This document shows, one piece after another, positions 30,241-56,088 of a DNA stretch of 64,000 bases. The notes under the pieces were generated by a model. It was not told where the DNA came from. It ran no database searches and saw nothing but the letters and a program-made list of their open reading frames with translations. How positions within the stretch are numbered: position 1 is the first letter of the stretch; every line of letters begins with the position of its first letter. Origin of the DNA: Nitzschia sp. DOCU1 (lineage: Eukaryota; Bacillariophyta; Bacillariophyceae; Bacillariales; Bacillariaceae); assembly GCA_951394045.1 (NCBI GenBank), contig OX595985.1, forward strand, positions 3,472,001-3,536,000, given 5' to 3'. The position numbers were made by a program, and so were the translations under genes.

Positions 30241-30560
30241 AGCGGTGGGCTCGTGTTGGGTGATGGGGGGCCACGGGAAGTGGAGGAATTTGCGCTACTT
30301 CGCTAAAATGCTAAAATGCTAAATTTTAGCCAATCAGCGTGCAGGATTTTTGTTCCACAGCCGAGTCACGTGTCACAGGTGCGAAAATTTTTAGAAGTGA
30401 AATGGCCTAAAATTTAGAAGTTTAGGGAACCCTCTCATGTTCCTGGTGCTTCATGAGGGTGGACGGGCGTGTGAACTCTGAAAATAAAGACAGCTAAATG
30501 CTTAATGAAACTGACCGGCGATTTTACTTCATAAAATAAACAGCTAAATGCTTAATGAAC
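30241..30560 (+). repeat. Left terminal inverted repeat of transposon T
   Basis: The core 30428-30560 pairs with 55923-56055. Within it the unit CAGCTAAATGCTTAATGA occurs twice (30491 and 30541), a candidate transposase-binding repeat. About 150 bp at 30275-30427, absent from the right end, separates the outer from the core TIR; it carries its own small inverted repeats (CTAAATTTTAG and CTAAAATTTAG) and may be a tiny insertion. Confidence 0.8.
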
Positions 30561-31428
30561 AAGTGAAGTAAGTGATAGTACACCAACTGAGGCTTCAGAT
30601 GAGAAGGCAGTTGAGGCTGTCAAGGGGCAGTTGGTGGCAGTAGTGAATAGCGTTATTTGGCCCAAGAAACAGTTCATTGTGTTAGAGGGTGAGCTGGATG
30701 GAGATGGTAAGCTAGCCAAAAAGACTTTAAAGGCATTGCATATGATCAGGGAGGATTGGAGTAAGATCAAATCAAAAGTCAGGGAAAAGCTAAGAGACAA
30801 ACGAAACAACACTCAAAATCTGGTGCGGCGGGCTTTAAATAGTAAGTTGGTGGAGTTGGTGACCTTGCTTCATTGCGGTTGCTCGTGATCTGGGAGAGGT
30901 GCCTTGTCGATGATTCTGTACTTACTTTTTTCCTTTGCTGTACTACTAAGGAGCTCTGGTTGAGAACAAATTGCCTGAACCAGCTTTGGTTGCAAAACTG
31001 CGCGAAAGAGAGGATGTATTTGGGTGGTTTCTCGACAATATTTGTGCATGTGTGGTTGGTAAAGAGACGGCTAAAAAAGAGGCTGCGATCAAACTACCAT
31101 CAGAATGGATGACACCAACTCAAGAAGCATTTGCGCTATTATGTGTGGAAAACTACTATGATATGATGGTGGACCAGCACAATCGTGTCCCAGATCCTGC
31201 CACACCTGTTTGGACTGATGGTGGGAGAGGCAAGCGCCGAGGACAAGGCTGGGATCAACATGGCATCACCCGCTACAATAGCTTGGTTCACCTGGTGAAT
31301 AGTGATCGAAGCAAGAATAGGGCAGTAGAGGAGCGCTATATGCATCAAAAGCGCCGTGCACTGCGTGATGCCTTGGAAGAGAAAAGGCGAGTTGAAATGG
31401 AAAGGAGGAAGGAGAGGGAAAGAGGAAT
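30560..31428 (+). pseudogene. Transposon T left gene, 5' and middle part
   Basis: Two exons, 30560-30841 and 30951-31428, intron 109 bp (GTAAGT...CTAAG), frame continuous. The open frame begins at the inner TIR edge with no ATG before codon 62 (first in-frame ATG 30742), so a 5' exon is missing or unrecognised. The protein is basic and helical (EDWSKIKSKVREKLRDKR; ENYYDMMVDQHNRVPDP; a long Arg/Glu/Lys helix at the end) with no known domain. Gypsy A2/A3 entered at codon G-I (TSD GGAAT). The last exon part lies at 40878-40946. Possible role: DNA-binding accessory protein of T; inference only. Confidence 0.6.
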
Positions 31429-31449
31429 TGCCCTATCCCGGGGGTGACG

Positions 31450-32013
31450 AAGTAGTTCGGCCCGGAAGTCGGCCAACGACATCTCCATCATGAACACATG
31501 GTAGCGTAGGTAGTTGCGTTGGCGGCGGTAGGCATGCTCGGTGCCGAAGTAGTACTTGCCCATTCGCTGCACCGCTTCGTTGAATGTGTCGTCCGGGGTC
31601 TCTTCTTCTTCCTCGTCCGACTCGTCAATGTTGTGACGAAGGTTAGCCACGATGTCGGCGAACCTCTGCCTTGCTTCACCGGCCAACAATGCCTTCGCAT
31701 ACTTGATCTTTTTCTCCCCATTGTCCAAGGGGACGTCCCGAATTAACTCGTCCATCTGGATCCTCCACTTGACCCATCGTTCGGCGTCGCCTTGCTCAAA
31801 GATGAAACAACGCGTTTCGAACTCATCCGAGTCCTCGTCGGTCGGGTCCAACTTGATCTTGATCTTCTTCGATTTCTCGTCCTCTTGGAGAACGTCATCG
31901 TCCTTGGGTTTCTCGCGACGAAAGAGGATCAGCGGCGGGTTAACGTGAGCGGCTTGAGTTAGGAGCAACGCGACTTTCTTGGCGTACTCGTGGTTGGAGT
32001 AAGAGGTCTTCAT
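31450..32013 (-). pseudogene. gag fragment of deleted unit A2
   Basis: ATG at 32013 and about 187 codons of gag, the same as A3 to the FRAELLR segment, where the sequence jumps to the LTR tip. Non-functional. Confidence 0.85.
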
Positions 32014-32037
32014 CCTCAAACGGGAGTTTTAAAACTG

Positions 32038-37145
<5,108 letters not shown>

Positions 37146-37169
37146 CCTCAAATGGGAGTTTTAAAACTG

Positions 37170-37503
37170 TGCCCTATCCCGGGGGTGACGAATAAAAGAA
37201 TAGAAGACAATTTAATTGTGAGACCTATATTACATCTATTTGACTTTCCTTCCAACAACAAGATTGACGAGACGAAAGATTTTCGTCTTTCAAATATTTG
37301 CAACCGATCGTTCATTTTGTGAACGACTTTCCCCGCGCGTAAATAACGCGCATATATGCTATCCATTCGGATATGTCGATTCCTCGTATCGTCGCCTTCT
37401 AACTAGGCGTCCCTAGTCTTGGCTAGCTACGACTCCTCTTTACCCATGGTCTGAATTATTTCCTTGTCCTAAATACATCTCCTCTATTAGGCGATGAATA
37501 TTT
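37170..37503 (-). repeat. Partial 5' LTR of gypsy A3
   Basis: The gag-proximal 334 bp of the family LTR, cut after ...GATGAATATTT by the 3' LTR of element B1. The remaining LTR part does not follow B1 on its other side, so A3 lost its promoter half. Confidence 0.85.
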
Positions 37504-37912
37504 TGCACTACGCTGAAAGTACGATGAAAAAGTTGTAGTGGAAATAATTGTGAGATCTAAAGTTATCGCTGATTCTATTGCTCCTAGACCCCCAGGGTCT
37601 TTCCTCAACGCATCCTACATGCGTTGGATACAACTCCCACCGATCTAGCTTCTTCAAGGTCCATAGCTAGATACCGTTGGAAGTTCTATTCCAGTAGTAG
37701 ACGTCGACGGCTTGCCGCGCTCGCCGTTGTCGTCGTCATTGCTCGTCAGCCGCGCCGGCCTTGCCCGTCCGTCCGTGCGTCCACAGACGTTCGACCAAGT
37801 CGACGTCAGCCAGGTATGTATGTAAGGTATGTAGGTACTACACGTAGGCCATTGTGTGTACTCTTTACTCTAACTACTTGTTAGATCTAGAGGGGTATTC
37901 TAGTGTACTGCA
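37504..37912 (-). repeat. 3' LTR of gypsy B1
   Basis: 409 bp; minus-strand ends TGCAGTACAC...GTAGTGCA. It lacks a block of about 45 bp with AACATTCTAAC-type short repeats and a CGGATCT segment that B2 LTRs carry. Confidence 0.85.
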
Positions 37913-37942
37913 TGCGCCCCCATGACAAGGGCTTCTAAGAGC

Positions 37943-40257
37943 TCACTCGTCATAAGCATCGCGTTCCTCGTACGGATGCAGATTCCGGATATTGTACGTT
38001 TGTTGCACTGCTCCCTTTCTGATGCGAATAGAGCCATTGTCATTAATGTGCACGATCTCATACGGACCGCTATAAGGATTCGTCCCATATTTGCGGGATT
38101 GTTCATTACGGACCATTACCTTCTGTCCTACGCGATACCGGTAAACTCTTCACGTCTTGTTTTCTGCTTCGTTATTTTGGATAATACGAGATTGTTTTCG
38201 TTCCTTAATTAATTTCCAGTTAGCTTCGAACCGGGTATTTAGGATAGCGTCGCGGCCAAACACTAGCTGTGTTGGCGTCGCTTGCATCGTTGTGTGATAT
38301 GTTGCGCGTACAGCGAACATAGTGGCTGCGAGGACTCCGTCCAGCAACTCCGTGTCTTTGGAGTCTTGCAACTCGAAAGTGCGAATCATGTTCCCTATGG
38401 TTTGGTGAACTCGCTCGATAATCGAATTAGCCTGCGGGTTTCGCGCTGTAATTGGCTTGGTCATTACGCCGTAGTCTTCGCGCACCATTCTTCGGAATTC
38501 TCCCATGAATTCAGTTCCGCGGTCATAAAAAATATTTTGTGGCCACGTGTATCTCGTAAACCACGCCATTTCGGCCGCACTGGCTATCGAAAAGGCTTCT
38601 TTATTTGCTACACGTACCATCTCGAACCATCCGGTTGCGGGATCTATCATAGTGAGACACCATAGTTGTAGTGTCTTCTTACTACCTAGTTGTTTTATCT
38701 TATATGGACCTATCAGGTCGACACATAGCGTATCCCAAGGGTCTATTTCTGCCGCCTTGGGTGGAAGATGCCCGTACTTGATTGTCTTTCGCTTGGTCAG
38801 CTGACAGGTCGGACAGGACTTGCAGATCCGCTCGACATCGCCGCGGATGTTCTTCCAGTAGAAGTGCTGTCGAATCGTTTGTTCGGTACGCGTTTCTCCT
38901 GGGTGACAGAGCATCTCGTGATACCACTTGACGCACGGCTTCTGGAGACTCGTTGGGAGAACAATCTTGTCCTCGCGTACTATTTGTTCTCGCTTCTTTC
39001 CGGCCCCACGATAGACTTTGACTGAATATCGCGGGTTTGTACGTACTTTAGATAATAAGGCGCGGTCGGCATTCTGCATGCGCGCTATGTTCTTGTAAGT
39101 GAGGGGGAATGCATCGCGCGGTAATTCGTCGCCCGCCAAAAACTCATTTAAGTGAGATTCGGGGAAAGGTCTATCGTCGAGATCGAGTCGACTAAGCGCG
39201 TCCGCAACGACGTTGTGTTCGCCCTTGATATAGACGAGTTCGGGGCCAAACTCCTCGATTAAGAGGCGCCAACGCATGACGCGCTCCGTGTTAAATTCTT
39301 TATACGTAAGATTTTTATGGTCTGTGAAGACTCTGATTCGCTGTCCCAAAAGGATATTGCAAAATTCTTTAAGTGTTTCGACGATAGCTAAAAGCTCTCG
39401 TTCCGTCGTAGTATAGCGCGTTTGTGCTGGGTTCAGCTTTCGACTATAGAACGCAATCGGTTTTCCGCGTTGCGATAACACTGCACCTAGCTGAGTATGA
39501 CTAGCATCGGTGTGTATTTCGAATGGTATGTTGAAATCGGGGTATGTTAGTAGTGTCTGCTTACTTATAATTCGTTTCATCGTGTCGAAGGCATTCTGCT
39601 CGACCGGACCCCATTGCCATTTGGCTTCTTTAGAAGTTAGCGCACTCAGAGGGGCTAAAACTTCAGAGCGACGAATCCACATGTCGCGGTAGTAGTTAAC
39701 TACGCCTATGAACTTACGTAGCTCGCGTTTATTGGTAGGTGCTTTCATAGCGTGAATAGCCTCTACTTTCTTTGCGACTGGTTGGATTCCGTCTCGCGTT
39801 ATCCAGTACCCAAGGTATTCTAGTTCGCCACGGGCGAAGAACGACTTTCGGGCGTTCACCTTAAGACCGGTGTCTTTTAGACGTTTGAAAATGACTTCTA
39901 GTTTCTCTAGGTGGTCATTAAAATCGCCTTTAGTTAGTTCTAGTAGATCGTCGATGTACACTCGTACGTACTCTAGATCCTCAAAGAGGGTGCCCATTTT
40001 CTCTTGGAAAATGTCGGGACTATTCGAGAGCCCCATCGGCAAGCGTTGCATTTCGTACTTACCCCAAGGGAGTACGACAGTACATAGCTTCTTACTGTCT
40101 GGGCTTAACTCTATGTGGTAGTAACCCATGTTGAGGTCGAGACTCGTCGCGTACTGAAAGCCTTCTAGCTTCATCAGTAAGTCCTGAATCTTCGGGATTG
40201 GATACGGCTTGCGTTAAATCCGTTTGTTCAACTCTCTGAAGTCGTTGATGAATCGAA
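37943..40257 (-). pseudogene. pol of gypsy B1 (RT, RNase H, integrase)
   Basis: RT from KPYPIPK with YIDD, RNase H (HTDASHTQLGAV, VADALSRLD), integrase HHCC (HEMLCHPGETR...C..C) and core MIDPATGW, YDRGTEF, NPQANSIIERVHQ. In-frame stops: TAA in NKRI-RKPYP (about 40215, AAA to TAA against B2) and TGA at 38150 (CGA to TGA). Not functional. Confidence 0.88.
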
Positions 40258-40275
40258 CAAGAGGGAAAGAGGAAT

Positions 40276-40877
40276 TGCCCTATCCCGGGGGTGACGAATA
40301 AAAGAATAGAAGACAATTTAATTGTGAGACCTATATTACATCTATTTGACTTTCCTTCCAACAACAAGATTGACGAGACGAAAGATTTTCGTCTTTCAAA
40401 TATTTGCGACCGATCGTTCATTTTGTGAACGACTTTCCCCGCGCGTAAATAACGCGCATATATGCTATCCATTCGGATATATGCCTTCTAACTAGGCGTC
40501 CCTAGTCTTGGCTAGCTACGACTCCTCTTTACCCATGGTCTGAATTATTTCCTTGTCCTAAATACATCTCCTCTATTAGGCGATGAATATTTACTACTTA
40601 GATTGTAGGCATGCCGTTGGCAAGGGACTCTATGGGTTAGTCGAATGTTACTATGCGATATAATACAGAGCGCGTATATGTGTAACGCTGCGACTCCTTT
40701 GATCGCTACGTCGGTGCGCCGTCAGCGACGACGTCATCGCTCGTTCTCGTCCGTGTCCGTTAGCCGTCTGTACGTCGTCCGTCCAACGGACGACTCCGTT
40801 CGTCTATGACTACTAAGACTACCAGCGTAAAGGACTAACTTGACTAAACTAATTATGCGTCTCTGTGGGGTATGGCA
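40276..40877 (-). repeat. Solo LTR of gypsy family A with perfect TSD
   Basis: 602-bp LTR flanked on both sides by GGAAT (40271-40275, 40878-40882), with an internal deletion of about 17 bp. The 16 bases before it (AGAGGGAAAGAGGAAT, 40260-40275) repeat the transposon-T flank at 31413-31428 exactly. This is what a solo-LTR allele of the A2/A3 insertion would look like. Confidence 0.85.
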
Positions 40878-40946
40878 GGAATGTATGAAGCCGTAGATGA
40901 TTTCAGCAGCAGTGATGAGGATGAGGATGAGAACCAGGTAGCATGA
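40878..40946 (+). pseudogene. Transposon T left gene, C-terminal end
   Basis: Continues the frame interrupted at 31428 once the LTR and one TSD copy are ignored: a short acidic tail (DDFSSSDEDEDENQVA) and stop TGA at 40944. It closes the left gene with an acidic, Ser-rich end. Confidence 0.65.
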
Positions 40947-42159
40947 ATATATTAGTTTCATTCTATGATAGAAAGCAATAGATTATTATTATCGAGGGGT
41001 ACATTGCTACTTGTGAAATATGCTGCATATGTCACAATGGTGGTGTGAAGATTAATGTCGGCTTTTTGTGATTGCAAAGATTGGAGAAAGTTGAATTGTA
41101 TTGATTTCGAAGTAGCTGACAGATGAGGGATGGTTGAGTAGTATAAGCATTGATGGCTCCTGATAGTATTTGAATGCAGGTTGGGCTGTATGCGCATTGT
41201 TGGTGGTCATAAAAACAGAGCGAGTATCTGTTCTACTCTACCCTGCGGTATGAGCAAAATTTAATGTGGTGTATGCACCAATTCGTGCATGTGCCACACC
41301 ATTTGGTGGATGGAATTTATATTTTTTGGTGGGGGAAGAAGGGGGGGAAAGATTCATTTTCGTGTTCTCTGATGTAGTTCGCTCGTCTTCTTGTTGTTGT
41401 TGTAGCACTAGTAGAATAGCAGCATACTGGAGCTACTTCAGCAGTACTAACTACTGCCATGAGGACCACCCTAAAGCTGGGAAGCCTTCAGTGCATCATC
41501 CTACTACCTGCGCGGGCGGTGGCACTCATAGTAGGTACAAGTAGGAGTAGTACTATTACTAGTAGTCGTAGTATACTCGGAGGAATACTAGCAGCTCCTC
41601 GTCACAGCAGCTAGTAGCCACTACTACTTCTGCTACTACTGCTACTACTACTATAACACCAGGTGTCTGGAGAGCTGTGCTGGTACTATTACTAGGTAGT
41701 ATAGCTACCTGGTATGAAGTTTAGTGCTGTACTGTACTAGTTGCAGAATACTAGCAGGTAGCTTTCTGCGCACCTGCATGGGATTTCCCCTTTTTCCTTC
41801 TCCCTTATTTTCGGGCGGCCAGGAACACTAGAAAATTGCCGAAGTTTGGAAGGTCAAGTTGAATTTACAGGGTCAACATTCCACCTACTTTCTACTAGAG
41901 AGTAATGATGCAGTTGCAAGTAAGGAAAACGCTGTTTGCTAAGAACAATGCCAACAATAGTTCATTTTTGTAGTACCAACGTTATTCTGGGGGACCTGTG
42001 GGGTGGGTGCTTGGTACTTTTTGCCACAGAACTGCACTCTGCCTGCTCACAATAGTTGCTGGAATGGCACGCCAAAAAAGGATGGCCAAGCATGTAAAAT
42101 GGCCTCTCAGAGCATCCAAAAATCGAGAACGAGGAAACCTGGTTGAGGACAGGAGGCCT
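40947..42159. other. Non-coding interior of transposon T, CTA/TAG-rich
   Basis: No gene seen. A hairpin (GTGTATGCACCAATTCGTGCATGTGCCACAC, in two halves, about 41265-41300) is followed by a degenerate trinucleotide area at 41380-41760 dominated by CTA, TAG, AGC and CTG units. The rest is unremarkable. Confidence 0.6.
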
Positions 42160-42436
42160 GGGGAGATCCTTCAATGTAATTGCAACAATTCCACGTAGGG
42201 TTCCTGGTTCATGCACAATGCCTGTAACACCTTCCAACCGACTACTGTCCATGCAAGTATCCAAGGGGGTTGTAGGACAGGTTCGTTCAGACGGAAGAAT
42301 TACTTTGGGTCATACCCCAAATAGTTGAATACTTCTTTGGCCATCTGATATCGAGTCACACGCACTGAACCCCCCATATTGTAGATATTGTACTCACCAC
42401 AGGGTGAATAGTTCACTACCATATCCCGGCGCTGCC
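42160..42436 (-). pseudogene. Fragment of an RmlD/SDR-type sugar-nucleotide reductase
   Basis: Minus-strand translation gives VVNYSPCGEYNIYNMGGSVRVTRYQMAKEVFNYLGYDPK, and after a 1-base shift (near 42309) a segment with P-L-D-x-x-MDSSRLEGVTGI. Both match the C-terminal end of dTDP-4-dehydrorhamnose-reductase-like short-chain dehydrogenases (G-Y-N-x-GG, SR/TR-Y-MA, GYDP, MDSS-K/R-L). No N-terminal Rossmann half is nearby. It is a decayed host-gene piece inside transposon T, probably captured. The RmlD/MAT2B subfamily cannot be told apart. Confidence 0.65.
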
Positions 42437-42457
42437 AGGTTTATAGGTGTGTAGGAA

Positions 42458-42536
42458 TCAATCTCGGCTACTTAGTAATCTCGTAATATTAGTGATTGTC
42501 GTGTGAAAAGTGATACGGTCAAAATCGATATCACAT
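42458..42536 (+). repeat. Captured copy of a host gene 3' end
   Basis: Near-identical to 17811-17898 (stop codon and 3' flank of the small gene at 17580) with a 9-bp deletion. It lies at the 3' end of the exonuclease gene; the TGA stop of that gene (42531-42533) is inside the copied segment. Confidence 0.8.
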
Positions 42537-43182
42537 ACTAGGAGGCTTGGTTCGTAAGTTGACATGTGGCATTGACTCCATTTTTAAGTAGCATAGCATT
42601 TGACAGTAGGCGTCGAGGGCAGCATAGGTTTCCTGCTCGACTGTCAGTTTGTCGGTACCCCAAGTTGAGTTGTGAGCCTTCTGGTCTTTGTACAGCTGTA
42701 CTCCTTTGAAGAGTGCCCCAAATATTTCAACCAATGCCACGTTGGCTCTTGAAACGACACCTCGCTCTTTCGCCATCTGCTGCAAATTGATTTCGCCCGC
42801 CAATTTGATGCCAGCCTCACGAAGTTTGCTCCGATCTGCAGAGATCCACGAAGCTACCTTTTTAATAGAGTTCGACTCCAACAACTTTATAAGTCCAGAG
42901 GGAAAGGGCCTGGTTTTACTTCGTTGGAAAATGTACGTGTCGAGGCCGGGAGTAGTAAGCTGGATGACGTCCGGTCCATGTTTCCCCCCCCTTGCCCACT
43001 CTGTATCCAGTGAGACGACTGACCAATTATTTTTTTCGCACTCTTGTATGATACCATTTGCAGTAGCTTCAGCAACGGCTCGTGTCGAGAACGTCACAGG
43101 TGGCTTGCTCAGTTCCAAATATTGCATTACATCACAACTTGAAGCTTGCTCTTGCTCTGCCTGCTCTTGCTGGGCTTTCGTT
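42531..43182 (-). pseudogene. Transposon T right gene, C-terminal DEDDy 3'-5' exonuclease
   Basis: Minus-strand frame with the three DnaQ-like motifs: Exo I VVSLDTEWA (D-x-E), Exo II ASWISADRSKL (D), Exo III YAALDAYCQM (Y-x3-D), about 160 residues, similar in plan to the WRN-type exonuclease domain. A Gln/Glu-rich linker precedes it. The 5' end is cut by gypsy B2 at 43183; the N-terminal part of the same frame is at 54280-55743. Allowing for a 4-bp duplication (AATG/AACG, one mismatch) the two pieces join in frame. The family removes nucleotides from DNA 3' ends; in a transposon it could trim donor or target ends. Confidence 0.82.
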
Positions 43183-43639
43183 TGCACTACGCTGAAAGTA
43201 TGATGAAAATGTTGTAGTGGAAATAATTGTGAGATCTAAGTTATCGCTGATTATATCGCTCCTAGACCATGAGGGTCTTTCCTCAACGCATCCAGTATGC
43301 GTTGGATACAACTCCCACCGATCTAGCTTCTCGGATCTCTTCAAGATCCATAGCTAGATACCGTTGGAAGTTCTAGTCCAGTAGTAGACGTTGACGGCTC
43401 GCCGCGCTCGCCGTTGTCGTCATCATTGCTCGTCAGCCGCGCCGGCCTTGCCCGTCCGTCCGTGCGTCCACAGACGTTCGACCAAGTCGACGTCAGCCAT
43501 GTATGTATCTAAGGTATGTTGGTACTACACGTAGGCCATTGTGTGTACTCATCGTTCGAACATTCTAACATTCCAATGTTACAACATTCTAACGTTCTAA
43601 CTACTTGTTAGATCTAGAGGGGTATTCTAGTGTACTGCA
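43183..43639 (-). repeat. 3' LTR of gypsy B2
   Basis: 457 bp, TG...CA in minus sense. It contains a short-repeat tract (AACATTCTAAC variants, 43556-43605). Preceded in minus sense by a purine tract (CATGGGGGCAC) as polypurine tract. Confidence 0.88.
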
Positions 43640-43669
43640 TGTGCCCCCATGACAAGGGCTTCTAAGAGC

Positions 43670-44379
43670 TCACTCGTCAGCAGCATCGCGTTCCTCGTAC
43701 GGATGCAGATTCCGGATATTGTAAGTTTGTTGCACTGCGCCCTTTCTGATGCGAATAGAGCCATTGTCATTAATGTGCACGATCTCATACGGACCGCTAT
43801 AAGGATTTGTCCCATACTTGCGGGATTGTTCATTACGGACCATTACCTTCTGTCCTACGCGATACCGGTAAACTCTTCGCGTCTTGTTTTCTGCTTCGTT
43901 ATTTTGGATAATACGAGATTGTTTTCGTTCCTTAATTAATTTCCAGTTAGCTTCGAACCGGGTATTTAGGATAGCGTCGCGGCCAAACACTAGCTGTGTT
44001 GGCGTCGCTTGCATCGTTGTGTGATATGTTGCGCGTACAGCGAACATAGTGGCTGCGAGGACTCCGTCCAGTGACTCCGTGTCTTTGGAGTTTTGCAACT
44101 CGAAAGTGCGAATCATGTTCCCTATGGTTTGGTGAACTCGCTCGATAATCGAATTAGCCTGCGGATTTCGCGCTGTAATTGGCTTGGTCATTACGCCATA
44201 GTCTTCGCGCACCATTCTTCGGAATTCTCCCATGAATTCGGTTCCGCGGTCGTAGATAATCTTTTGTGGCCACGGATATCGCGTGAACCACGCCATTTCG
44301 GCCGCACTGGCTATCGAAAAGGCTTCCTTATTTGCTATACGTACCATCTCGAACCATCCGGTTGCGGGATCCATCATAG
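43670..44379 (-). pseudogene. Integrase C-terminal part of gypsy B2
   Basis: Begins at the MMDPATGWFEM motif where element C is inserted (partner end at 50079) and runs through YDRGTEF, NPQANSIIERVHQ and a GPY/F-like module (YSGPYEIVHIND) to stop TGA 43670. The frame here is intact; the polyprotein is broken elsewhere. Confidence 0.88.
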
Positions 44380-44383
44380 TGAG

Positions 44384-44915
44384 TGCAGTACACTGCTTTA
44401 CACGTCGACTCCTTCGAATGATTGTAGTCCAATAATATTAGTCTATTTAGTCATGTGTGACATCATGTGTGATGACGTAGCATGACGAAAGCGTTGCATG
44501 CGGACGCGAACGCTAGGCCGGTCTCGGACATCGTCGGACAAGGCCCATAACCTATTGACGTCACCGTCGGCGTGACGTTGCATGACGCAGGCATCGCGCA
44601 TGACTCCAGCTAGTCGAATGCCGATGAGATCCTAGTGTCAATGCCACCTAAGATCTGGCACCTCGATGACATCGAGGTAGCTATACTTTATTCCAGAGTA
44701 GCTGACGACGTCCAAAGAACCCTAGTACAACGTCGTAGCTAGTCTACTACAAGATGCATCAACCTCCTGTTCGGATTGTTGTCGATGCATGTCAAAGGTC
44801 TCGACTCTACTAGAACTACGAGAGCCTACGAGACAACTTGCATGAGAAATACATCTAGTTTTTAACCTAGCCATAATTTTCACAACCTTTTTGATCCTAC
44901 AAACGACGTAGTGCA
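44384..44915 (+). repeat. 5' LTR of gypsy C
   Basis: 532 bp. It is followed at once by TAGTGTTAACACTCC, again a palindromic core in place of a TGG-type primer site. Confidence 0.9.
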
Positions 44916-44966
44916 TAGTGTTAACACTCCACGACAATCGTCGTGATCAAGATCAATTTACTCAAG

Positions 44967-46142
44967 ATGAAGCTCTCTAACGCAACCGTTGCCGCCGCCG
45001 CGGCTATTCCTCGCCATGACATGTCGAGAAAAGGTTTTCAACGAGCCCCGATCCCTATTCAACGTGAACCTGAAGTTGCAGTGAACAAGGAAAAGCTGGT
45101 TACCTTCAAGTGTCGCAATGTTCCTGAAGATCCAACCTCCACTCAGTTCGAACTGTCGATTCTTCCGTTCAACGGCGACGAGTCGCCTGAAACTTGGTTT
45201 CGCCTCCAAGAAAAGGCCAAAAAGGTGATCAACGGTCAGCACCTGACTACCGGTCCGCAAAAGTATGAGTTTTACCGCCGTATCCTCACCGGAAAGGCCC
45301 TCGCCAAGTTCGAGGAAACCGCAGCGACCGCTGGGAACGAAACAAGTGCAAATTTGAAAATCGTCCTCCAAGGAGTGACTAACTACGTTCTCCCGGCTCG
45401 CGCACTTCAGACCCAGAAACGTTACATGCGCCGTTTGTGTCGCAAGCCTCCTGAGATGTCGATGAAGGAATATATCAGCCGCTTCCAGCAACTCAACAGC
45501 TACTTGGCGATGTTTGACAGCACTCGTGGAGCAGCCAACAAGCTTCCCAACGACGAGATCATTGAGCATGCAGAATTCGCCATTCCCGCCAGTTGGCGTC
45601 AACAGATGATCCTGCAGGGTTTCGAGCCGATTGACCACACTTTGGACGAGTTTACCCAGTTCTGCGAGCGCCTCGAATTCACCGAAAAATTGCACGAAAC
45701 TCACCACGTCCGTAAGCAGAAGCCAGATGGCAACCATCCTCCGAAGGGGAAACGAGACCCGCGAATGGATCACTCGAAGCCCGCTATTAAGCGCGGCCCT
45801 AATGACAAGACTCCTCCCTTTAAATGTGCCTACCATGGCCCCAACTGGTCCCACAACACTGGGGACTGCAAGATGGTGGTGGCGCAGGCCCAGAAGATGG
45901 CTGCCGCCCATGGAAACTTCATCAAGAATGGCGATAAAAAGCCTCGTTACGGTAACCGCACTTGGGTTCGTGACGATGGCGGCGCCAACAAGAAAGAAGA
46001 ACTACATGCCATGATCCAGAACATGGTCAAGGACGCGGTCAAGGACGAACGCAAGCGCAAGGCGATTGATCCACCCGACGAGGAAAACTTCAATGTGGAC
46101 GAACTCTTGGCTAACCTTGTCGCTAGCGACGATGAAAACTGA
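44967..46142 (+). CDS. Gag of gypsy C
   Basis: 391 aa from ATG 44967 (an in-frame GTG lies upstream but has no reason to be used). Gag forms the particle. A capsid-like helical region (PFNGDESPETWFRLQEKAKK; TYVLPARALQTQKRYMRRLCRK) is followed by a C-x2-H-x5-H-x4-C knuckle (CAYHGPNWSHNTGDC, about 45827) and an acidic end. It ends with TGA at 46140. The pol frame is the same frame, with the next ATG at 46179, so pol is reached either by reading through the UGA or by reinitiation 37 bases on. A 317-codon antisense frame over gag is a shadow. Confidence 0.9.
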   Translation: MKLSNATVAAAAAIPRHDMSRKGFQRAPIPIQREPEVAVNKEKLVTFKCRNVPEDPTSTQFELSILPFNGDESPETWFRLQEKAKKVINGQHLTTGPQKYEFYRRILTGKALAKFEETAATAGNETSANLKIVLQGVTNYVLPARALQTQKRYMRRLCRKPPEMSMKEYISRFQQLNSYLAMFDSTRGAANKLPNDEIIEHAEFAIPASWRQQMILQGFEPIDHTLDEFTQFCERLEFTEKLHETHHVRKQKPDGNHPPKGKRDPRMDHSKPAIKRGPNDKTPPFKCAYHGPNWSHNTGDCKMVVAQAQKMAAAHGNFIKNGDKKPRYGNRTWVRDDGGANKKEELHAMIQNMVKDAVKDERKRKAIDPPDEENFNVDELLANLVASDDEN

Positions 46143-46178
46143 AGGTGTGAGCGAGTTGTACACGAAAAATCTAGTTTA

Positions 46179-49100
46179 ATGCATAATAATAAGGACGAGT
46201 TATCCTATTACAAAATCTCTGAAAGAGTAGGTGGGAAACGCAAAAATTGCCGATGTGACGAAGTTTTCGTTTTCCACGAGCAACACGATGGGGCACGACA
46301 TGCGAGCCCATCCGTCTATATACCGTCCGAGCCGGGCGAGGTCTTCGCCTCATTGGACCAATGCATTAATTACCGTATCGCGGCGGAATCGCACACGATA
46401 ACGCGACTGTACAACCGGAGCTCACCAAAACGCCAGAAAACCGCGCCAGACGAAATTCCGTACTGTTTCGTGCAAATTAACACGCGCCTAGGCAAGGCCA
46501 AGGCGGCAGCGTTGACGACGCTACTAGACACCGGAGCATCACGAGGACTGATCTCCGAGAAGCATGTCAGGAAACTACGTGTCAGGACGACACCATCGAG
46601 AACCACCTTCACGACAGCTGGAGGTGTCGTCGAGACACACCGCGAAGTAAAAATCCAGTTTAAACTTCCGGAATTTCATGCCAATAGGGTGATTGAATGG
46701 GTCTTCCAGGTGACATCCGACCTTGGCAACTACGACATGATCATTGGCAGAGATCTTCTGCGAGAACTAGGTGTCAAGTTCGACTTCAAGACAAGGGAAG
46801 TCGAATGGGATTTAGCTGCTATAGCAATGAAGATATATGGCGAGACGCCCAACGAAGACGCCTGGCAGGCCGACGCAGATGGTGGTGCCAAGTCTATTAA
46901 ACAAATCTTAGACGCTAAATATGCCCCAGCGGACATTCCGCAGAAAATCTCCGAGATGGACCATCTGTCGGAAGAAGATAAATCCGCCCTCAAGACGCTT
47001 CTTCAGAAACATGAGACGCTCTTTGACGGCACGCTCGGCACTTGGAAAGGCGAGCCCTATGATATCGAGCTAAAGCCTAATGTCACGCCATATCATGCGA
47101 GGCCATATCCAGTGCCGAAGGCATATGAACAGACGCTACGCGACGAGGTCGATCGCCTCTGCGCAGTCGGCGTACTAAAGAAAGTCAACCGCTCTGAATG
47201 GGCGGCACCGTCGTTCATCATACCAAAGAAGGACAAGACGGTACGGTTCATAAACGACTTCCGCGAGCTCAACAAGCGAATCAAGCGGAAGCCATTCCCG
47301 CTACCAAAGATACAAGAGCTACTGTTAAAACTAGAAGGTTTTCAGTACGCTACTAGTTTAGACCTAAACATGGGCTACTACCATGTGGAACTTAGTCCGA
47401 ACGCAAAGAAACTTTGCACTCTCGTCTTCCCATGGGGAAAATATGAGATGCAGCGACTACCTATGGGACTCAGCAATAGCCCCGATATCTTCCAGGAAAA
47501 GATGTCGTCGCTGTTCGCAGACCTAGAGTACATACGTACGTACATAGACGATCTTCTAGTACTTACTAAGGGTAGTTACCTAGACCACCTAGAGAAACTC
47601 GACGTGGTACTACAACGTCTGAAAGACACGGGACTCAAGGTGAACATCAAGAAGTCCTTCTTCGCGAAAGCGGAGCTCGAATACCTTGGCTACTGGATTA
47701 CCCGCGACGGCATCCAACCAGTAGCAACCAAAGTGCAAGCAATCCAAGCCATGCTCGCACCGCGCAATAAAAAGGAACTACGCGCTTTCATCGGTATCGT
47801 GAATTATTATCGCGACATGTGGGTGCGCCGTTCGCACATCCTCGCCCCGCTCGCATCACTTACGTCGAAAACAGCTAAGTGGGAGTGGACCGGCGCGCAC
47901 CAAGAGGCATTTGACACGATGAAGAAAATAATAAGTAAGGAGGTTCTCCTAACTTACCCGAACTTTCATCTACCGTTCGATATACATACTGACGCGAGCG
48001 ACACGGTAAGCCTATCGCGTTCTATAGTCGCAAACTCAATCCCGCGCAGACACGGTATACCACTACCGAGCGGGAACTACTAGCTATTGTAGAAACACTC
48101 AAGGTACGATTCTCCTAGGTCAACAGATTCGCGTCTACACCGACCACAAGAATCTAACCTATAAAAACTTCAATACTGAACGCGTTATGCGCTGGCGACT
48201 CATCCTCGAAGAGTATGGTCCCGAACTTGTCTACGTTCGAGGTGAGACGAATGTAGTAGCGGACGCCCTTAGTCGACTTGGTAAGGACGAAAAGCCCTTT
48301 ACCGAGGCCAATTTCGCAGAGTACTTTGGGGGCGATGAACTACCTGAAAGCGTCTTCCCCCTTACCTACAAGTACATTATGCGACATTAGCGAAAAGATA
48401 CCGCGCTGCTCCAAAAGGCAGCGTCGGACAGTAGATATAGTGTAAAGGTTTTTCGTGGGGGCGGTAAGAAACGTCCTCTAGTAGTTAGAGATGGTAAGAT
48501 AGTTATTCCGCAGTCACTCCAACGCCGATGCGTTGAGTGGTACCACGAGACACTGTGTCACCCGGGGGAGACCCGTACGGAGCACACGATTCGGCAGCAT
48601 TTCTACTGGAAAGGACTGCGAACCGACGTCGTCAACATCTGCAAGAAATGCAGGTTGTGCCAATTAACAAAGCGCAAGACCCTTAAGTATGGGCACCTGC
48701 CAATTAAGGAACCCGAGAGCGAACCCTGGGAAATCCTATGTGTCAATCTCATAGGCCCCTACTCGATTAACCAGGGTAAACGAAATAAGGGTAAACAGAA
48801 ACAACTCGAGCTTTGGTGCCTTACCATGATTGATCCGGCAACTGGCTGGTTTGAGATGGTTCGCGTACCCAATAAAGAGGCTTTTAGTATCGCCGAATTA
48901 GCCGAAAAGACGTGGTTCACAAGATACCCGTGGCCACAACAAGTTATTTATGACCGCGGCACGGAGTTCATGGGCGAATTCCGGCGAATGGTCAAGGAAG
49001 ACTATGGCGTGCTTGCGCGCCCAATCACTGCGAGAAACCCGCAGGCGAACGCAATACTCGAACGAGTACACCAAACTATCGGGAATATGATTCGTACGTT

Positions 49101-49515
49101 TGAACTGCAGCACTCAGACGATACAGTCGGACTCGATGGAATCCTGGCAGCCGTGATGTTCGCCGTGCGCGCGACATATCACACGACGCTACAGGCTACG
49201 CCGATGCAACTAGTTTTCGGTAGAGATGCCATTCTCAACACCCGCTTCGAAGCTAATTGGAAGCTCATCCGTGAGCGCAAGATGCAACGCATTGCGAAGA
49301 ACAATGCGGCAGAAAACAAAACGCGATTACCGTATGAGTATCACGTAGGCCAACAGATCATGATCAAGCAGGACCAACAACGTAAGTTTGGTGCTAACCC
49401 TTACGATGGTCCGTATCCAATAGTCGCCGTGAATGACAACGGTACAGTACGTATCCAGAAGGGTGCAGTTACTCAGACTTGGAACATTCGTAACATACAT
49501 CCCTATCATAGTTAA
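46179..49515 (+). pseudogene. Pol of gypsy C (two deletions and a stop)
   Basis: Protease LLDTGAS (about 46525), RT with FINDFRELNKR, LPMGLSNSPDIFQ and YIDD (about 47546) intact. In RNase H about 30 bases are missing after DASDT (about 48003), shifting the frame, and a few more after ETLK (about 48103); a TAG stops the frame at 48388. Integrase is then readable: HPGETRTEHTIRQHFYW with C..C, MIDPATGW, YDRGTEF, NPQANAILERVHQ, GPY/F (YDGPYPIV). Since the LTRs are nearly identical, this copy was probably moved by enzymes from a sister element while already defective, or decayed very recently. Confidence 0.9.
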
Positions 49516-49542
49516 GTCCTGTCCCTCCATCATGGGGGCGGG

Positions 49543-50074
49543 TGCAGTACACTGCTTTACACGTCGACTCCTTCGAATGATTGTAGTCCAATAATATTAG
49601 TCTATTTAGTCATGTGTGACATCATGTGTGATGACGTAGCATGACGAAAGCGTTGCATGCGGACGTGAACGCTAGGCCGGTCTCGGACATCGTCGGACAA
49701 GGCCCATAACCTATTGACGTCACCGTCGGCGTGACGTTGCATGACGCAGGCATCGCGCATGACTCCAGCTAGTCGAATGCCGATGAGATCCTAGTCTCAA
49801 TGCCACCTAAGATCTGGCACCTCGATGACATCGAGGTAGCTATACTTTATTCCAGAGTAGCTGACGACGTCCAAAGAACCCTAGTACAACGTCGTAGCTA
49901 GTCTACTACAAGATGCATCAACCTCCTGTTCGGATTGTTGTCGATGCATGTCAAAGGTCTCGACTCTACTAGAACTACGAGAGCCTACGAGACAACTTGC
50001 ATGAGAAATACATCTAGTTTTTAACCTAGCCATAATTTTCACAACCTTTTCGATCCTACAAACGACGTAGTGCA
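49543..50074 (+). repeat. 3' LTR of gypsy C
   Basis: 532 bp, preceded by the purine tract CATGGGGGCGG (49531-49541). Followed by TSD TGAG and the resumed pol of B2. Confidence 0.9.
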
Positions 50075-50078
50075 TGAG

Positions 50079-52772
50079 ACACCATAACTGCAATGTCTTC
50101 TTACTACCTAGTTGTTTTATCTTATATGGACCTATCAGGTCGACACATAGTGTATCCCAGGGGTCTATTTCTGCCGCCTTGGGTGGAAGATGCCCGTACT
50201 TGATTGTCTTTCGCTTGGTCAGCTGACAGGTCGGACAGGACTTGCAGATCCGCTTGACATCGCCGCGGATGTTCTTCCAGTAGAAGTGTTGTCGAATCGT
50301 TTGTTCGGTACGCGTATCTCCTGGGTGACAGAGCATCTCGTGATACCACTTGATGCACCGTTTCTGGAGACTCGTTGGGAGAACAATCTTGTCCTCGCGT
50401 ACTATTAGTTCTCGCTTCTTTCCGCCCCCACGATAGACTTTGACTGAATATCGCGGGTTTGTACGTACTTTAGCTAATAAGGCGCGGTCGGCATTCTGCA
50501 TGCGCGCTATGTTCTTGTAAGTGAGGGGGAATGCATCGCGCGGTAATTCGTCGCCCGCCAAAAACTCATTTAAGTGAGATTCGGGGAAAGGTCTATCGTC
50601 GAGATCGAGTCGACTAAGCGCGTCCGCAACGACGTTGTGTTCGCCCCTGATATAGACGAGTTCGGGGCCAAACTCCTCGATTAAGAGGCGCCAACGCATG
50701 ACGCGCTCCGTGTTAAATTCTTTATACGTAAGATTTTTATGGTCTGTGAAGACTCTGATTCGCTGTCCTAAGAGGATATTACGAAATTCCTTAAGTGTTT
50801 CGACGATAGCTAAAAGCTCTCGTTCCGTCGTAGTATAGCGTGTTTGCGCCGGGTTCAATTTTCGACTATAGAACGCAATCGGTTTCCCGCGTTGCGATAA
50901 CACCGCACCTAGCTGAGTATGACTAGCATTGGTGTGTATTTTGAAAGGTATGTTGAAATCGGGGTATGTTAATAGTGTCTGCTTACTTATTATTCGTTTC
51001 ATCGTGTCGAAGGCATTCTGCTCGACCGGACCCCATTGCCATTTGGCTTCTTTAGAAGTTAGCGCGCTCAGCGGGGCTAGAACTTCAGAGCGACGAATCC
51101 ACATGTCGCGGTAGTAATTAACTACGCCTATGAACTTACGTAGCTCGCGTTTATTCGTAGGTGCTTTCATCGCATGAATAGCTTCTACTTTCTTGGCGAC
51201 TGGTTGGATTCCGTCTCGCGTTATCCAGTACCCAAGATACTCCAATTCGCCTCGGGCGAAGAAGGATTTTCGGGCATTCACCTTGAGACCGGTGTCACGT
51301 AGACGTTTGAAAATTACTTCTAGTTTCTCTAGGTGGTCATTAAAATCGCCTTTAGTTAGTTCTAGTAGATCGTCGATGTACACTCGTACGTACTCTAGAT
51401 CCTCAAAGAGGGTGCCCATTTTCTCTTGGAAAATGTCGGGACTATTTGAGAGCCCCATCGGCAAGCGTTGCATTTCGTACTTACCCCAAGGGAGTACGAT
51501 AGTACATAGCTTCTTACTGTCTGGGCTTAACTCTATATGGTAGTAACCCATGTTGAGGTCGAGACTCGTCGCGTACTGAAAGCCTTCTAGCTTCATCAGT
51601 AAGTCCTGAATCTTCGGGATTGGATACGGCTTGCGTTTAATCCGTTTGTTCAATTCTCTGAAATCGTTGATGAATCAAACTGTTCCATCCTTTTTGGGGA
51701 TGATAAAGGTGGGCGCACCCCATTCGGAGCGGTTCACCTTTTTGAGTACTCCGACTCGACAGAGTCGTTCGACTTCATCGCGGAGGGTACACTCGTACGC
51801 TTTCGGTACAGGGTACGCTCTAGCATGGTACGGCTTGGCACCTTCTACTAGTTCAATATCATAGGGGGCCCCACGCCATCGGCCGAGGGTACCATCGAAT
51901 AGAGTCTGGTATTTGGCTAGTAGTTGTTCTAGCTTACATTGCTCATCCTTACTAAGGTGAGTTTGCTCTCTAGCGATGCTACGTGCATCGGCTTTCTCGT
52001 ACTTGGCGTCGAGAATTTCCTTGACGCGGTCCGACATCTCGTCGACGTGTCCGCGTTCATGTACATGATACGACGTCGCCGTCGTCGCATCTATTTCTTT
52101 CATTGGCATGCATGCATCGTCCCATTCTACTTCCATAGCTTTGAAGTCGATCACTAGACCTAGCTCTTGCATTAGGTCTCTGCCTATGATCATATCATAG
52201 TTACCTAGATCGTCCGCTAGGTGAAAGTCCCACTCGATCAATCGATCGTCGTGTAGTTCTGGTAGACTGAGTTGCGTGGTCATGCGTTCAGTACACTTAT
52301 AACTACCGCTCATAGTCGTGAATACAGTAGTCGCTTTTTGGGTCTTTATTTTTAGTTTACTAGCGCTGCTCTTCTTCCAGAGACAGCCACTACCGCCAGA
52401 GTCAAGAAGTGCCTTGACGGTTACTACTTGTTGCCGACGTCCGCCGCGTTGGTTAACACGAGCAAACGTGATCGGTACTAAATGGCTGGATTTTTGTCGC
52501 TTATTTGAGCCTGCAGTTCGACTACCTCGAATCGTATTCAATAAGTAAAGCTCGCGCTCGCGCTGTGCTTCCGCCAGACATGCGTCGAGAGAGCTGAACC
52601 TTCGAGATTCCCTTGCGTGTGAATTTTGCAAATTTTGTGTTGCGCTTGAAATGCTATCGCTATTGTAAAATGATTCCATGTATTGGACATCGTCCCTATG
52701 GTTAAAACTAGTGTAATTGTTCAATTTACCACTATTATTATTGTATTCACACGTAGTCACCGGCTCACGTCG
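50079..52772 (-). pseudogene. Pol of gypsy B2 (protease, RT, RNase H, integrase N-part)
   Basis: Reads from 52772 leftward: protease with LLDSGGS, a D-S-G variant of the usual D-T-G; RT with FIIPKKDGTV then TGA at 51675 (CGA to TGA in the conserved R of V-R-FINDF), continuing KPYPIPK, YIDD; RNase H (HTNASHTQLGAV, where the usual catalytic Asp of TDAS is Asn); integrase HHCC (HEMLCHPGDTR) to WCL, where element C interrupts. The same frame as gag, from which it is separated by UGA. Confidence 0.88.
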
Positions 52773-53849
52773 TCAATCCATCTCGACATCGCTGTCGCTG
52801 CTGACGCTAAGCTTGTCGAAATCTGGGAGATCGTTGAGATCATCCATGTCGTAATTGAAGTTGTCCATCGAAGGAGGATCTTCGGCCTAGCGCTTCTTGG
52901 CAGATTGCTTGACTGCGTTGTCCACCATGGACTTAATGTAGGCATGAAGCTCGCCTGTTTTCTTCTTCTTCTCGCCGTCGCCATAGTTGTTGCTGCGGCG
53001 CCAAGTTTTGTTTTCGAAGCGGGTCGTTTTGAAACGACCTCCGACGTTGGAGTGGGCAGATGCCATCTTCTTCGCCTGGTCCTTTAAAATAAGACAATCA
53101 TGGGAAGCGTGCGTGTTGTTAGCTCCATGATACAAGCATTCATACTTTGCGGCCTTACCGTCGGTTCCCGCTCTCGGGCCTCCGCGCTTCCTCTTCGAGG
53201 GATTTTCGTCATTCGACTTGCCATGCTTGTCCGCCTTATTGCTAAGGGCTTCATTGATTTCTTCAGTAGCTTCCAGCCGTTCGCAGAAGTCTACGAAGTC
53301 TTGAACCGTGTGTTCCACCGGCTCGAATCCTTGTAGGATCATCTCCTTGCGCCACTTGGCGGGGATCCCAAACTCGCAATTCTCCATGAGCTCGTCGTCG
53401 GGAATTTTGTTTTTCTCGCCTTTCGCGTCGAACAGCACGAGGTAATCGTTTAGCTCGCGGAGCCGAGCCACATACGCCTTCATTGTCATCGTCGGGGGCT
53501 TTCGGCAGATCCGACGCATATAGCGCTTTTGAAGTTGCACTGCGCGTTTTGGGAGAACATACGCCGTAACCGCGTGCAAACTTTTCTCGAAACTCTCAGG
53601 AGTTTCGGCTTCGAGTTCCGAGGCCTTCGCGTTGAACGCGGCCAATACCTGGCCTTTCAGCAAATTGTGTGTTAACGCAAATTTCTGAGGTCCCGTAGTC
53701 AAGTCCTGACCCGCGATCACATCCTTAAGTCATCCTTAAGTCCGATAAGGAAAAGGAACCACTCTTCGGGCGTTCCGTCGGTGAAATGCGGTTGTTTGAC
53801 GCGTCGCGTCAACGATTTTTTGTCTTTTGGGTCAATGCGCAAGTCGTAT
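52773..53849 (-). pseudogene. Gag of gypsy B2 (damaged)
   Basis: 5' part missing (joined to LTR at 53850). An 11-bp direct duplication (CATCCTTAAGT, about 53727-53748) shifts the frame. Then an open stretch (GQDLTTGPQKFALTHNLLKG...) with knuckle C-x2-H-x5-H-x4-C (CLYHGANNTHASHDC). A TAG at 52887 replaces a Lys codon present in family C; the true gag end by comparison with C is the UGA at 52773-52775. Confidence 0.85.
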
Positions 53850-54279
53850 TGTTGTAGTGGAAATAATTGTGAGATCTAAGTTATCGCTGATTATATCGCT
53901 CCTAGACCACGAGGGTCTTTCCTCAACGCATCCAGTATGCGTTGGATACAACTCCCACCGATCTAGCTTCTCGGATCTCTTCAAGATCCATAGCTAGATA
54001 CCGTTGGAAGTTCTAGTCCAGTAGTAGACGTCGACGGCTCGCCGCGCTCGCCATTGTCGTCGTCATTGCTCGTCAGCCGCGCCGGCCTTGCCCGTCCGTC
54101 CGTGCGTCCACAGACGTTCGACCAAGTCGACGTCAGCCATGTATGTATCTAAGGTATGTTGGTACTACACGTAGGCCATTGTGTGTACTCATCGTTCGAA
54201 CATTCTAACATTCCAATGTTACAACATTCTAACGTTCTAACTACTTGTTAGATCTAGAGGGGTATTCTAGTGTACTGCA
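53850..54279 (-). repeat. 5' LTR of gypsy B2 (inner end damaged)
   Basis: 430 bp, nearly identical to 43183-43639 but lacking about 25 bases at the inner tip, where it is fused to gag sequence. Confidence 0.85.
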
Positions 54280-55743
54280 CATTTCGGGCTCAAAGGAAGC
54301 AAAGATGGGCTCCTTGCCTTGGTTGTTTGTGCCTTCATAGAACGATCGCTCTTGATCAGTAGTGAAAATAATCGGCCCCTTAAAACCATGCAGCTTGTAT
54401 CGGCGATTCAGAGCTCGAAGCGAATCTTCAATCTCAAGCATGGTCATGCCTGCTACTAGCCGCCAAAGAAGAACTTTGTTGAACTCGTTCATCACCGTAT
54501 AAAGACCAACAAATGCACGTTCATGCTCCACAAGAACAACCTTTCCAATTTTCAAGAAATGGTTGCCACTGAGAAATAGGCCACCGTTCATTGTCATTCG
54601 GTGTCGGTAAAAGGGAATATATGATTCTATTTGTTCCACAGTCACCTTCAGAAGGTAGTTCAGGGAAGGCGTAGCCATCTCTGACCTATCATCATCAAAG
54701 GCAAAAAACAATGATCTGGCTGGGATAGCACGAGATTGGTCACCACTGTATCGGTAGAAACGTGCGCAATAGCTGCCCCACATGGTACGAAGAGCTGCAT
54801 GGGATTGGTGGTAGCGTTCGTCTACCATGTCGACAAACCCAGAGGCACTCATTCCATGTGCAAGTTCGGATCGCATGCTCTGAATCATTGTTCGTCTTAC
54901 ACCTCCACGAGCTGATAAAATGAATCCATTTTCGTTCCAATATGCTCGTATATATGCAGGAGCCTGGCAGAGGACGGCTGCGTCATAGCTGTAGAAAATA
55001 TATTTGCCTTCAGCAGTCTTTCCCCTTTCATCCATGCGAATTGAACATTTGTACTCCCTGCCAGTAAGAGCAGTAATGCCATCCTCGTCAAACACACGGC
55101 GATAATAATTGGACCAGCCATTGTGGACAACACAGGATGTCTCGCCGGGATGATATGGACAGCAGGGTTTCCCAGCAGGATAAAACTCGGGGAATCGCAG
55201 CTCAGGAGCCCAGAACATCACAGGACGACATGCAAAATCCTCGGCAGTCAAAGGGCCTTGACAACATCCAGCAGCAAGAGTGCTTTGGTAGAAGAGGGAT
55301 GGGTCTGATGAAGTAGAAGGGCCTATTGCTCATGCCATGAAGCTATCTGGCCAGCTTCCAAACCGCTCATGCTTCCCCTGTTCTTTGAAGCCAGTTGCAG
55401 CCTTCAGAATCCCAGCAAGTGAGTCGTAGAGTTTCAGGGTAGTTGGTTGAAACCGGCCCTGGGCAGAGCCGGACTTGCACTCGGCTCTATCACTGCTGGA
55501 ATCTTCACATGTCTGCTGCTTTTCCTGTTGATCAAGTTGTTTCGCCTTTCTTGTTGCTGCAGCTTTTTTTCCACGGCGGACTCGTTCTGGATCCTTCTGG
55601 AGCGTAGGCACTGACTGATTGGAGTTCATAAGTATTTGCAAGGTTCGTTGCTTCCGCCGCTCTTCCTTTTCCTTCTGGAGGTTTTCACGAGGATATGGAT
55701 TGTGAATCCTCTGCTTTGGGGCTGTATTGACATCCATAATCAT
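54280..55743 (-). pseudogene. Transposon T right gene, DUF6729-like and DDE-like N-terminal part
   Basis: ATG 55743, 488 codons to the B2 insertion, with one in-frame TGA at 55330 (context GCA-TGA-GCA, an easy CGA to TGA change). Residues about 1-135: basic disordered start (PKQRIHNPYPRENLQKEKEERRKQR). Then RPVMFWAPELRFPEFYPAGKPCCPYHPGE, GWSNYYRRV, YKCSI, an SARGGVRR segment and a Y-rich helix, the layout of DUF6729 proteins as I recall them. Last about 90 residues: LVEHERAFVGLYTVMNEFNKV, LEIEDSLRALNRRYK, IIFTTDQERSF, which resembles an RNase H-fold (DDE) core with an NEF motif and TTDQ. The exonuclease follows in frame at 43182. Likely the transposase of T; inference. Confidence 0.7.
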
Positions 55744-55922
55744 GTTGCGGGTGTTGAAATTTTGCGGGTGTTGAAATTTGATACATTGGACAATTGTGTC
55801 ATTGTTTGTGCGAGGATTTGGCCATGGTGCCGATAAAATTCAAACAATGCATTCCCTCCAATATTCGTATCAGATTTGGCGCGAAAGACAGTCAAACAAG
55901 TCAACAGACGGCTCATAACCTC
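55744..55922 (-). promoter_or_regulatory. Upstream region of the T right gene
   Basis: 180 bp between right TIR and the start at 55743; the only space for its promoter apart from the TIR. An ATTTTGCGGGTGTTGAA unit is partly repeated (55747-55780). No TATA assigned. Confidence 0.4.
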
Positions 55923-56088
55923 GTTTATTAAGCATTTAGCTGTTTATTTTATGAAGTAAAATCGCCGGTCAGCTTTATTAAGCATTTAGCTGTCTTTATT
56001 TTCAGAGTTCACACGCCCGTCCACCCTTATGAAGCACCAGGAACATGAGAGGGTTGCCCCAAGGGCTCACCAACACGAGCCCACCCGC
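55923..56088 (-). repeat. Right terminal inverted repeat of transposon T
   Basis: Core 55923-56055 is the inverse of 30428-30560 with about four mismatches, again with two copies of the CATTTAGCTG-containing unit. Outward match to about 56088. Confidence 0.8.

Follow-up and report, generated by a model that had tools for sequence, protein, structure and literature searches.

Two putative decayed Dada-like transposons in a Nitzschia contig, and a proposed copy-out/paste-in movement of their family

The stretch of DNA analysed here (the window) comprises 64,000 nucleotides of contig OX595985.1 of Nitzschia sp. DOCU1 (assembly GCA_951394045.1, positions 3,472,001 to 3,536,000 of the forward strand), and carries two inverted copies of a 139-nt sequence (30425-30563 and 55920-56058, 96% complementary) separated by 25,356 nt of nested long terminal repeat (LTR) retroelement sequence, a plus-strand gene and the pieces of a transposase-like gene. 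We consider it probable that two elements of a Dada-like transposon family, both decayed, lie in the window, one non-autonomous (element A) and one coding but broken (element B), and that this family moves by copy-out/paste-in. The original prediction had reported the inverted arms as 133-bp copies 25 kb apart, which the alignment bore out, and had taken them for the terminal inverted repeats (TIRs) of one element of about 5.3 kb once the nested LTR elements were set aside. The pairing is not due to chance, because the source genome (52 Mb in 63 contigs) contains 33 matches to a 133-bp query from the left arm, many of them in same-strand rows spaced by 1,220 or 1,301 bp. The flanks of the left and right arms are not copies of one another, as those of a target duplication would be, and the arms are the same end-type (the N-side end, which adjoins the N-terminus of the transposase), belonging to two elements that point in opposite directions. 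Outside both arms lies a further exact inverted match of 16 bp (30244-30259 and 56070-56085).

The left arm pairs with an end at 41840, and the interval from 30425 to 41840 is a non-autonomous element with a carried gene, later hit by an LTR element. Exact ends could be set at these two positions, both ends being present within an 8-bp target duplication (GAAGTTTA and GAAGTTTG, seven of eight bases matching). The left 139 bp of element A are 96% identical to a complete relative on contig C16 (L042), and the stretch 41388-41840 aligns with the far end of that same relative at 91% identity over 465 alignment columns; among six non-autonomous relatives compared, five are 90–96% identical to the N-side end of element A over 139 bp and the sixth 76%. 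The LTR insert is bordered by a 5-bp duplication, GGAAT, at 31424-31428 and 40878-40882 (read by eye), and the plus-strand open frame (30950-31447) runs into retroelement sequence from 31429 onward. Two convergent genes had been predicted inside one element; the plus-strand frame is real but sits in element A, not in the element of the nuclease gene. This gene may have been captured, since its sole other genome match (45% identical, contig C27:37404-37871, L084) has no family end in its neighbourhood according to a motif scan. An apparent intron and an acidic tail were also seen in it.

Element B, on the minus strand, consists of the right arm and two transposase pieces separated by 10.6 kb of retroelement sequence. 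In tblastn, 55713-54250 matches residues 19–523 and 43208-42558 matches residues 505–719 of one 1,524-amino acid protein encoded on contig C9, and the second piece matches the Pfam family PF01612 (E 4.3e-10) and the WRN exonuclease in PDB (E 2e-15). The predicted combination of a transposase-like part with a DEDDy nuclease was thus confirmed, and the RNase H-like part and the nuclease belong to one protein, which is likely the transposase because its homologues sit between 8-bp target duplications in multicopy elements. This agrees with the earlier identification of transposon DNA with a probable transposase gene. The claim that both domains lie in one frame did not hold for the copy in the window, which has an in-frame TGA (55330-55332), an asparagine codon (AAC, 54562-54564) in place of the first catalytic D, and a loss of three residues (RCC) after the second D. 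Its C-terminal half, which would carry the catalytic E, has no match in the window. Given these lesions and the retroelement insert, we regard the element B transposase as dead. No partner end for the right arm was found in the window, where CCAAGGGC, the expected half of the target duplication, is not repeated beside a family end, and no target duplication was recognised for the LTR insert (43207-54279). Other genome matches to a 362-amino acid piece of element B are at most 64% identical, and within reach of the genome search the element is the single copy of its own family. Beside the exonuclease part, about 130 bp (42408-42535) are 85% identical to a stretch adjoining the element on contig C14 (L043), another repeat having taken the place of the C-terminal half of element B. 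The end-type of the arms mostly flanks short non-coding elements in the genome, while the gene is multicopy inside elements with target duplications; the idea of a transposase therefore survives, and that of a single element does not.

Table 1. Positions, in the window, of the parts of elements A and B
Feature	Position	Strand	Remark
Element A target-site duplication, left copy GAAGTTTA	30417..30424		7/8 identical to 41841-41848
Element A N-side end, left arm of inverted pair	30425..30563	+	
Element A carried gene	30564..31428	+	open frame from 30950
Nested LTR-retroelement sequence within element A gene	31429..40877		boundaries by eye
Element A C-side end, ...AGAAAATTGCC	41388..41840	+	
Element A target-site duplication, right copy GAAGTTTG	41841..41848		
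Element B DEDDy 3'-5' exonuclease part of transposase	42531..43206	-	D, E, D, Y, D all present
LTR-retroelement sequence splitting element B gene	43207..54279		direct repeats; boundaries by eye
Element B N-terminal and DDE-domain part of transposase	54250..55839	-	broken
Element B N-side end, right arm of inverted pair	55920..56058	-	
CCAAGGGC, expected half of element B target duplication	56059..56066		

Five relatives in the source genome have open frames of 1,428–1,596 amino acids, in which the order of domains is D, D, a WRN-like DEDDy exonuclease, DxxH and E. Assigned by motif, D381, D450, D861/H864 and E1014 are invariant in eight aligned proteins of three families, as are the exonuclease columns D, E, D, Y and D in the same eight. 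A C-terminal CCHC zinc finger (C1386, C1389, H1402, C1422) is invariant in seven proteins, the 1,428-amino acid frame (L069) ending before it, and C184, H187, C193 and C222 form an invariant N-terminal mix of C and H, a possible counterpart of the N-terminal CCCC zinc finger of Dada, with two CxxC pairs seen by eye in a sister family (L070). The label DUF6729 (PF20499), which the original prediction had given to the window protein, found a Pfam match in that sister family (47.7 bits against a cut-off of 27), but the window pieces and the relatives on C9, C14 and C13 had no Pfam match to it above the cut-off. Two AlphaFold2 models reached mean predicted local distance difference test (pLDDT) scores of 65.4 and 69.0, and the exonuclease folds well in them. 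Foldseek and VIA returned exonucleases and polymerases, with no DDE transposase among the matches listed, which is not evidence against a DDE fold; the viral structure matches listed were likewise exonucleases and polymerases, plus weak retroviral Pol rows. P0012 was considered as a nuclease-free relative and rejected, as it does lack a complete exonuclease but is a truncated protein. A3 gave 37 pattern matches in viral_contigs, none of which was confirmed.

A family element has two unlike ends, the N-side one starting GGCAACCCTC and the C-side one reading AGAAAATTGCC or AGAAGTTTGCC, and the inverted repeat common to both is short (GGCAA/TTGCC), extending imperfectly over about 25 bp in a copy on C9 (by eye). 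Among single copies with both ends read, 12 of 13 have an 8-bp target duplication with at most one mismatch, the exception being L054. These counts omit L055 and L058, two single copies whose C-side end did not turn up in the sequence retrieved, copies L066 and L067 on C11 (same flanks, one duplicated locus), and the relatives on C13 (L039, L014), C14 (L044), C1 (L020, L026, L027, L033/L063/L064) and C6. Small RNA genes were looked for at the insertion sites, with no Rfam match in 20 loci and the window and no tRNA in 36 loci (ARAGORN in its bacterial setting, several loci having short flanks only).

Many copies stand head to tail, and the joints between them differ from the target duplications. 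Leads to such arrays were of four kinds (N-side end matches, protein matches, gap-tolerant joint patterns and N-side end patterns) and yielded 17 distinct arrays, in which the joint measures 6 bp in 15, 7 bp in one (C8), 10 bp in one (C14a) and 8 bp in none. The joints of C1, C17 and C14a were taken from the gap-tolerant pattern scan, as were 12 of 12 joints of the C2 array, two of which were re-read; a second C1 array (3869-3878 kb) with the same flanks as the first was counted once, and a pair on C10 (443/454 kb) was omitted. Thirteen of the 17 arrays have a joint identical to the final six bases of their 8-bp N-side flank, and none has a joint identical to the first six bases of the C-side flank. 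Fifteen arrays retain an 8-bp duplication at their outer borders, with no more than one mismatch. The outer duplications of C8, C14a, C4b and C15c are intact (with one mismatch in C14a) but the joints of these four arrays are unrelated to them, a pattern that insertion of a preformed multimer would leave. Two gap-tolerant pattern scans (0–25 free bases between exact ends; zero matches with reversed patterns as control) gave 33 joints, 30 of them of 6 bp, one of 7 bp and two of 10 bp. For one end-class, 42 of 58 N-side ends lie in same-strand arrays and none has an opposite-strand neighbour within 6 kb, head-to-head joints not having been searched as a pattern. The units are identical in the dimers C4a, C11 and C5, and differ in C8 (902 of 935 aligned bases identical) and C16 (1,423 of 1,461, with 48 gap positions). 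On C2 (2562.7-2578.5 kb; L040, L048), thirteen 1,220-bp non-autonomous elements stand head to tail, satellite-like, within one 8-bp duplication. On C1 the same array and flanks occur twice, at 3841.9 and 3869.6 kb (L079-L082), with three and six listed units; this pair appears to be a duplicated locus with a changed number of units, and both arrays are embedded in sequence similar to the N-side part of the transposase element on C14.

We infer copy-out/paste-in because the joint is fixed, one-sided and two bases shorter than the duplication, whereas crossing-over between duplications would give 8 bp; a 6-bp joint is what results when a 3' end is connected to a position 6 nt beyond the opposite end. 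In the route we propose, cleavage would free the C-side 3' end, which would then be linked to host DNA at a point 6 nt beyond the N-side end; the resulting joints would have the form end, 6 nt, end. Joining onto the same insertion on a sister or homologous chromosome would produce a tandem dimer in place, and multimers formed at one site could also be inserted elsewhere as a unit. Circle or figure-eight intermediates and replication would be part of such a route, with the DEDDy nuclease trimming the 3' ends. If so, a 6-bp joint beside an 8-bp duplication would be a mark, readable in the sequence of a eukaryotic DDE element, of the copy-out route known from bacteria, and the growth of a single insertion into a satellite-like array would be explained. 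Extended to Dada-type transposons as a whole, the proposal is of a eukaryotic DDE superfamily with copy-out/paste-in movement, one-directional strand transfer, tandem dimers, mobile multimers and end processing by an exonuclease in the core, and we hold this wider form to be slightly better than an even bet.

Several observations weigh against copy-out/paste-in. Arrays C5 and C11 have no outer duplication on the C side. Copy-out should leave donors, and none of 16 single N-side flanks matches the four foreign joints. The C16 units differ as much as two separate copies do, and simple in-place copying of one unit does not account for that dimer, which would need exchange between homologues or gene conversion. 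Neither AlphaFold2 model shows a confident DDE fold, the stretches with the catalytic D residues having pLDDT under or near 50, and the D-D-E geometry that the original prediction proposed to look for in a predicted fold was not confidently seen. The IS256-family element ISCth4 uses either end, unlike the arrays here with their one direction, and the likeness to published Dada transposases rests on motifs and the published description. The circles, figure-eights and enzyme activity are proposed from sequence.

The same letters can also be reached by other routes. A cut-and-paste transposon inserting at its own edge would leave letters identical to the 6-bp joints if the 8-bp duplication comprised six bases of flank plus the GG that opens the resident N-side end, and if the incoming copy dropped its first GG. 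We find this rather improbable, as every insertion would have to lose the same two bases, take the same orientation and prefer the edge of the element itself as its site, and GGGG at the outer junction is absent among the array flanks read. Host end-joining might instead have circularised linear excised elements with a few flank bases, or joined them to sister copies, after nuclease trimming, so that transposase strand transfer plays no part in the joint. The conserved nuclease and the variation seen in the 7- and 10-bp joints speak for this, but end-joining should be ragged, whereas the length is exactly 6 bp in 15 of 17 joints and those taken from the own flank always come from the same side; we judge it unlikely.

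A cut-and-paste Dada-like transposon whose arrays arose later, through unequal crossing-over between the 8-bp duplications on either side of a single insertion, seems quite improbable: joints of 8 bp are predicted and occur in none of the 17 arrays, which led us to reject crossing-over as the origin of the dimers, and the four joints unrelated to the outer duplication stay unexplained. Once a dimer exists, unequal exchange easily yields 3–13 identical units, such as the 13 at 1,220-bp spacing on C2, and it is a likely route of later array growth. The reading of the original prediction, one 25.8-kb element bounded by 133-bp TIRs, is very improbable. The arms are inverted and 96% alike, with the extra 16-bp inverted match outside them, but a complete second end, with a target duplication, belongs to the left arm at 41840, the arm flanks do not match each other, and all 13 single copies with both ends read show two unlike ends. 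The single element was rejected accordingly.

The original prediction knew such proteins only as uncharacterised frames, but the 2013 Dada paper (PMC3706591) already describes the architecture, in which elements of Laccaria bicolor and Ectocarpus siliculosus have a DEDDy exonuclease placed after the second D and before DxxH, and suggests processing of 3' ends after cleavage as the task of the nuclease. The domain combination is the published plan for Dada and was already known. We call the family Dada-like because the paper reports the same plan, including the DDE triad with DxxH, all exonuclease catalytic residues and the C-terminal CCHC. We stop short of classing it as Dada proper, since three tested Dada features were not found here, the Dada proteins being compared by description. 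The spacing of the first two D residues is 69 residues here and 68 in Dada-U6_DR. Published Dada elements are described with target duplications of 6–7 bp (8 bp here), insertion in small RNA genes (no RNA gene found at the loci scanned here), no TIRs (GGCAA/TTGCC and longer imperfect ones here) and, except in Perkinsus, introns (single long open frames here). New here are the 8-bp duplications of single copies together with 6-bp joints in arrays, at scanned sites without an RNA gene. The zebrafish Dada-U1 has 8-bp outer flanks (CTGCGAAT) and 6 bp (GCGAAT) between tandem copies, its authors choosing 6 bp as the duplication without ruling out 8 (PMC3706591). This difference between outer and inner flanks is the same as in the arrays here, and suggests, in a reading other than the authors', an 8-bp duplication and a 6-bp joint in Dada-U1; we do not apply it to Dada-U6. 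If copy-out holds, these flanks would be reread as duplication versus joint. The Pfam family DUF6729 would also be tied to a transposase whose catalytic core contains an inserted nuclease.

Eukaryotic DNA transposition is described as largely cut-and-paste, while replicative pathways dominate in bacteria (PMC7780238), and a limited literature search found no report of copy-out by Dada. The closest parallel lies in the bacterial IS256 family, which shares the 8-bp duplication, a joint of about 6 bp derived from the flank, tandem dimers and the C/DxxH motif. For ISCth4 the duplications are 8 bp long and a 6-bp joint gives the most efficient integration, and IS256 circles carry 5, 6, 7 and 19 bp (PMC7780238). 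In Tn4001, one end of IS256 serves as donor and the joint has fewer bases than the duplication (PMC3299598), a one-directional joining like that of the arrays here; the combination of an 8-bp duplication with a shorter joint from the donor flank recurs in 13 of 17 arrays, the other four joints not coming from the own flank. The IS256 transposase, as described, is short and without an exonuclease, and circles and figure-eights were seen there, whereas the evidence here is sequence. The KolobokP authors compare excision footprints with IS3/IS256 copy-out (PMC9587614), and circles in eukaryotic DDE elements have therefore been raised before. According to the same source, KolobokP and KolobokD are eukaryotic DDE elements with C/DxxH and multimers, KolobokD carrying a DnaQ-type nuclease; unlike the family here, they have TTAA duplications and multimers sharing long terminal direct repeats, and the KolobokD nuclease is DEDDh and TREX-like rather than DEDDy and WRN-like.

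A further family with an exonuclease and DDE-like motifs was observed on C10, at 443146 and 453920 (10,774 bp apart), and on C1 at 2782808 (L033-L035, L063, L064).

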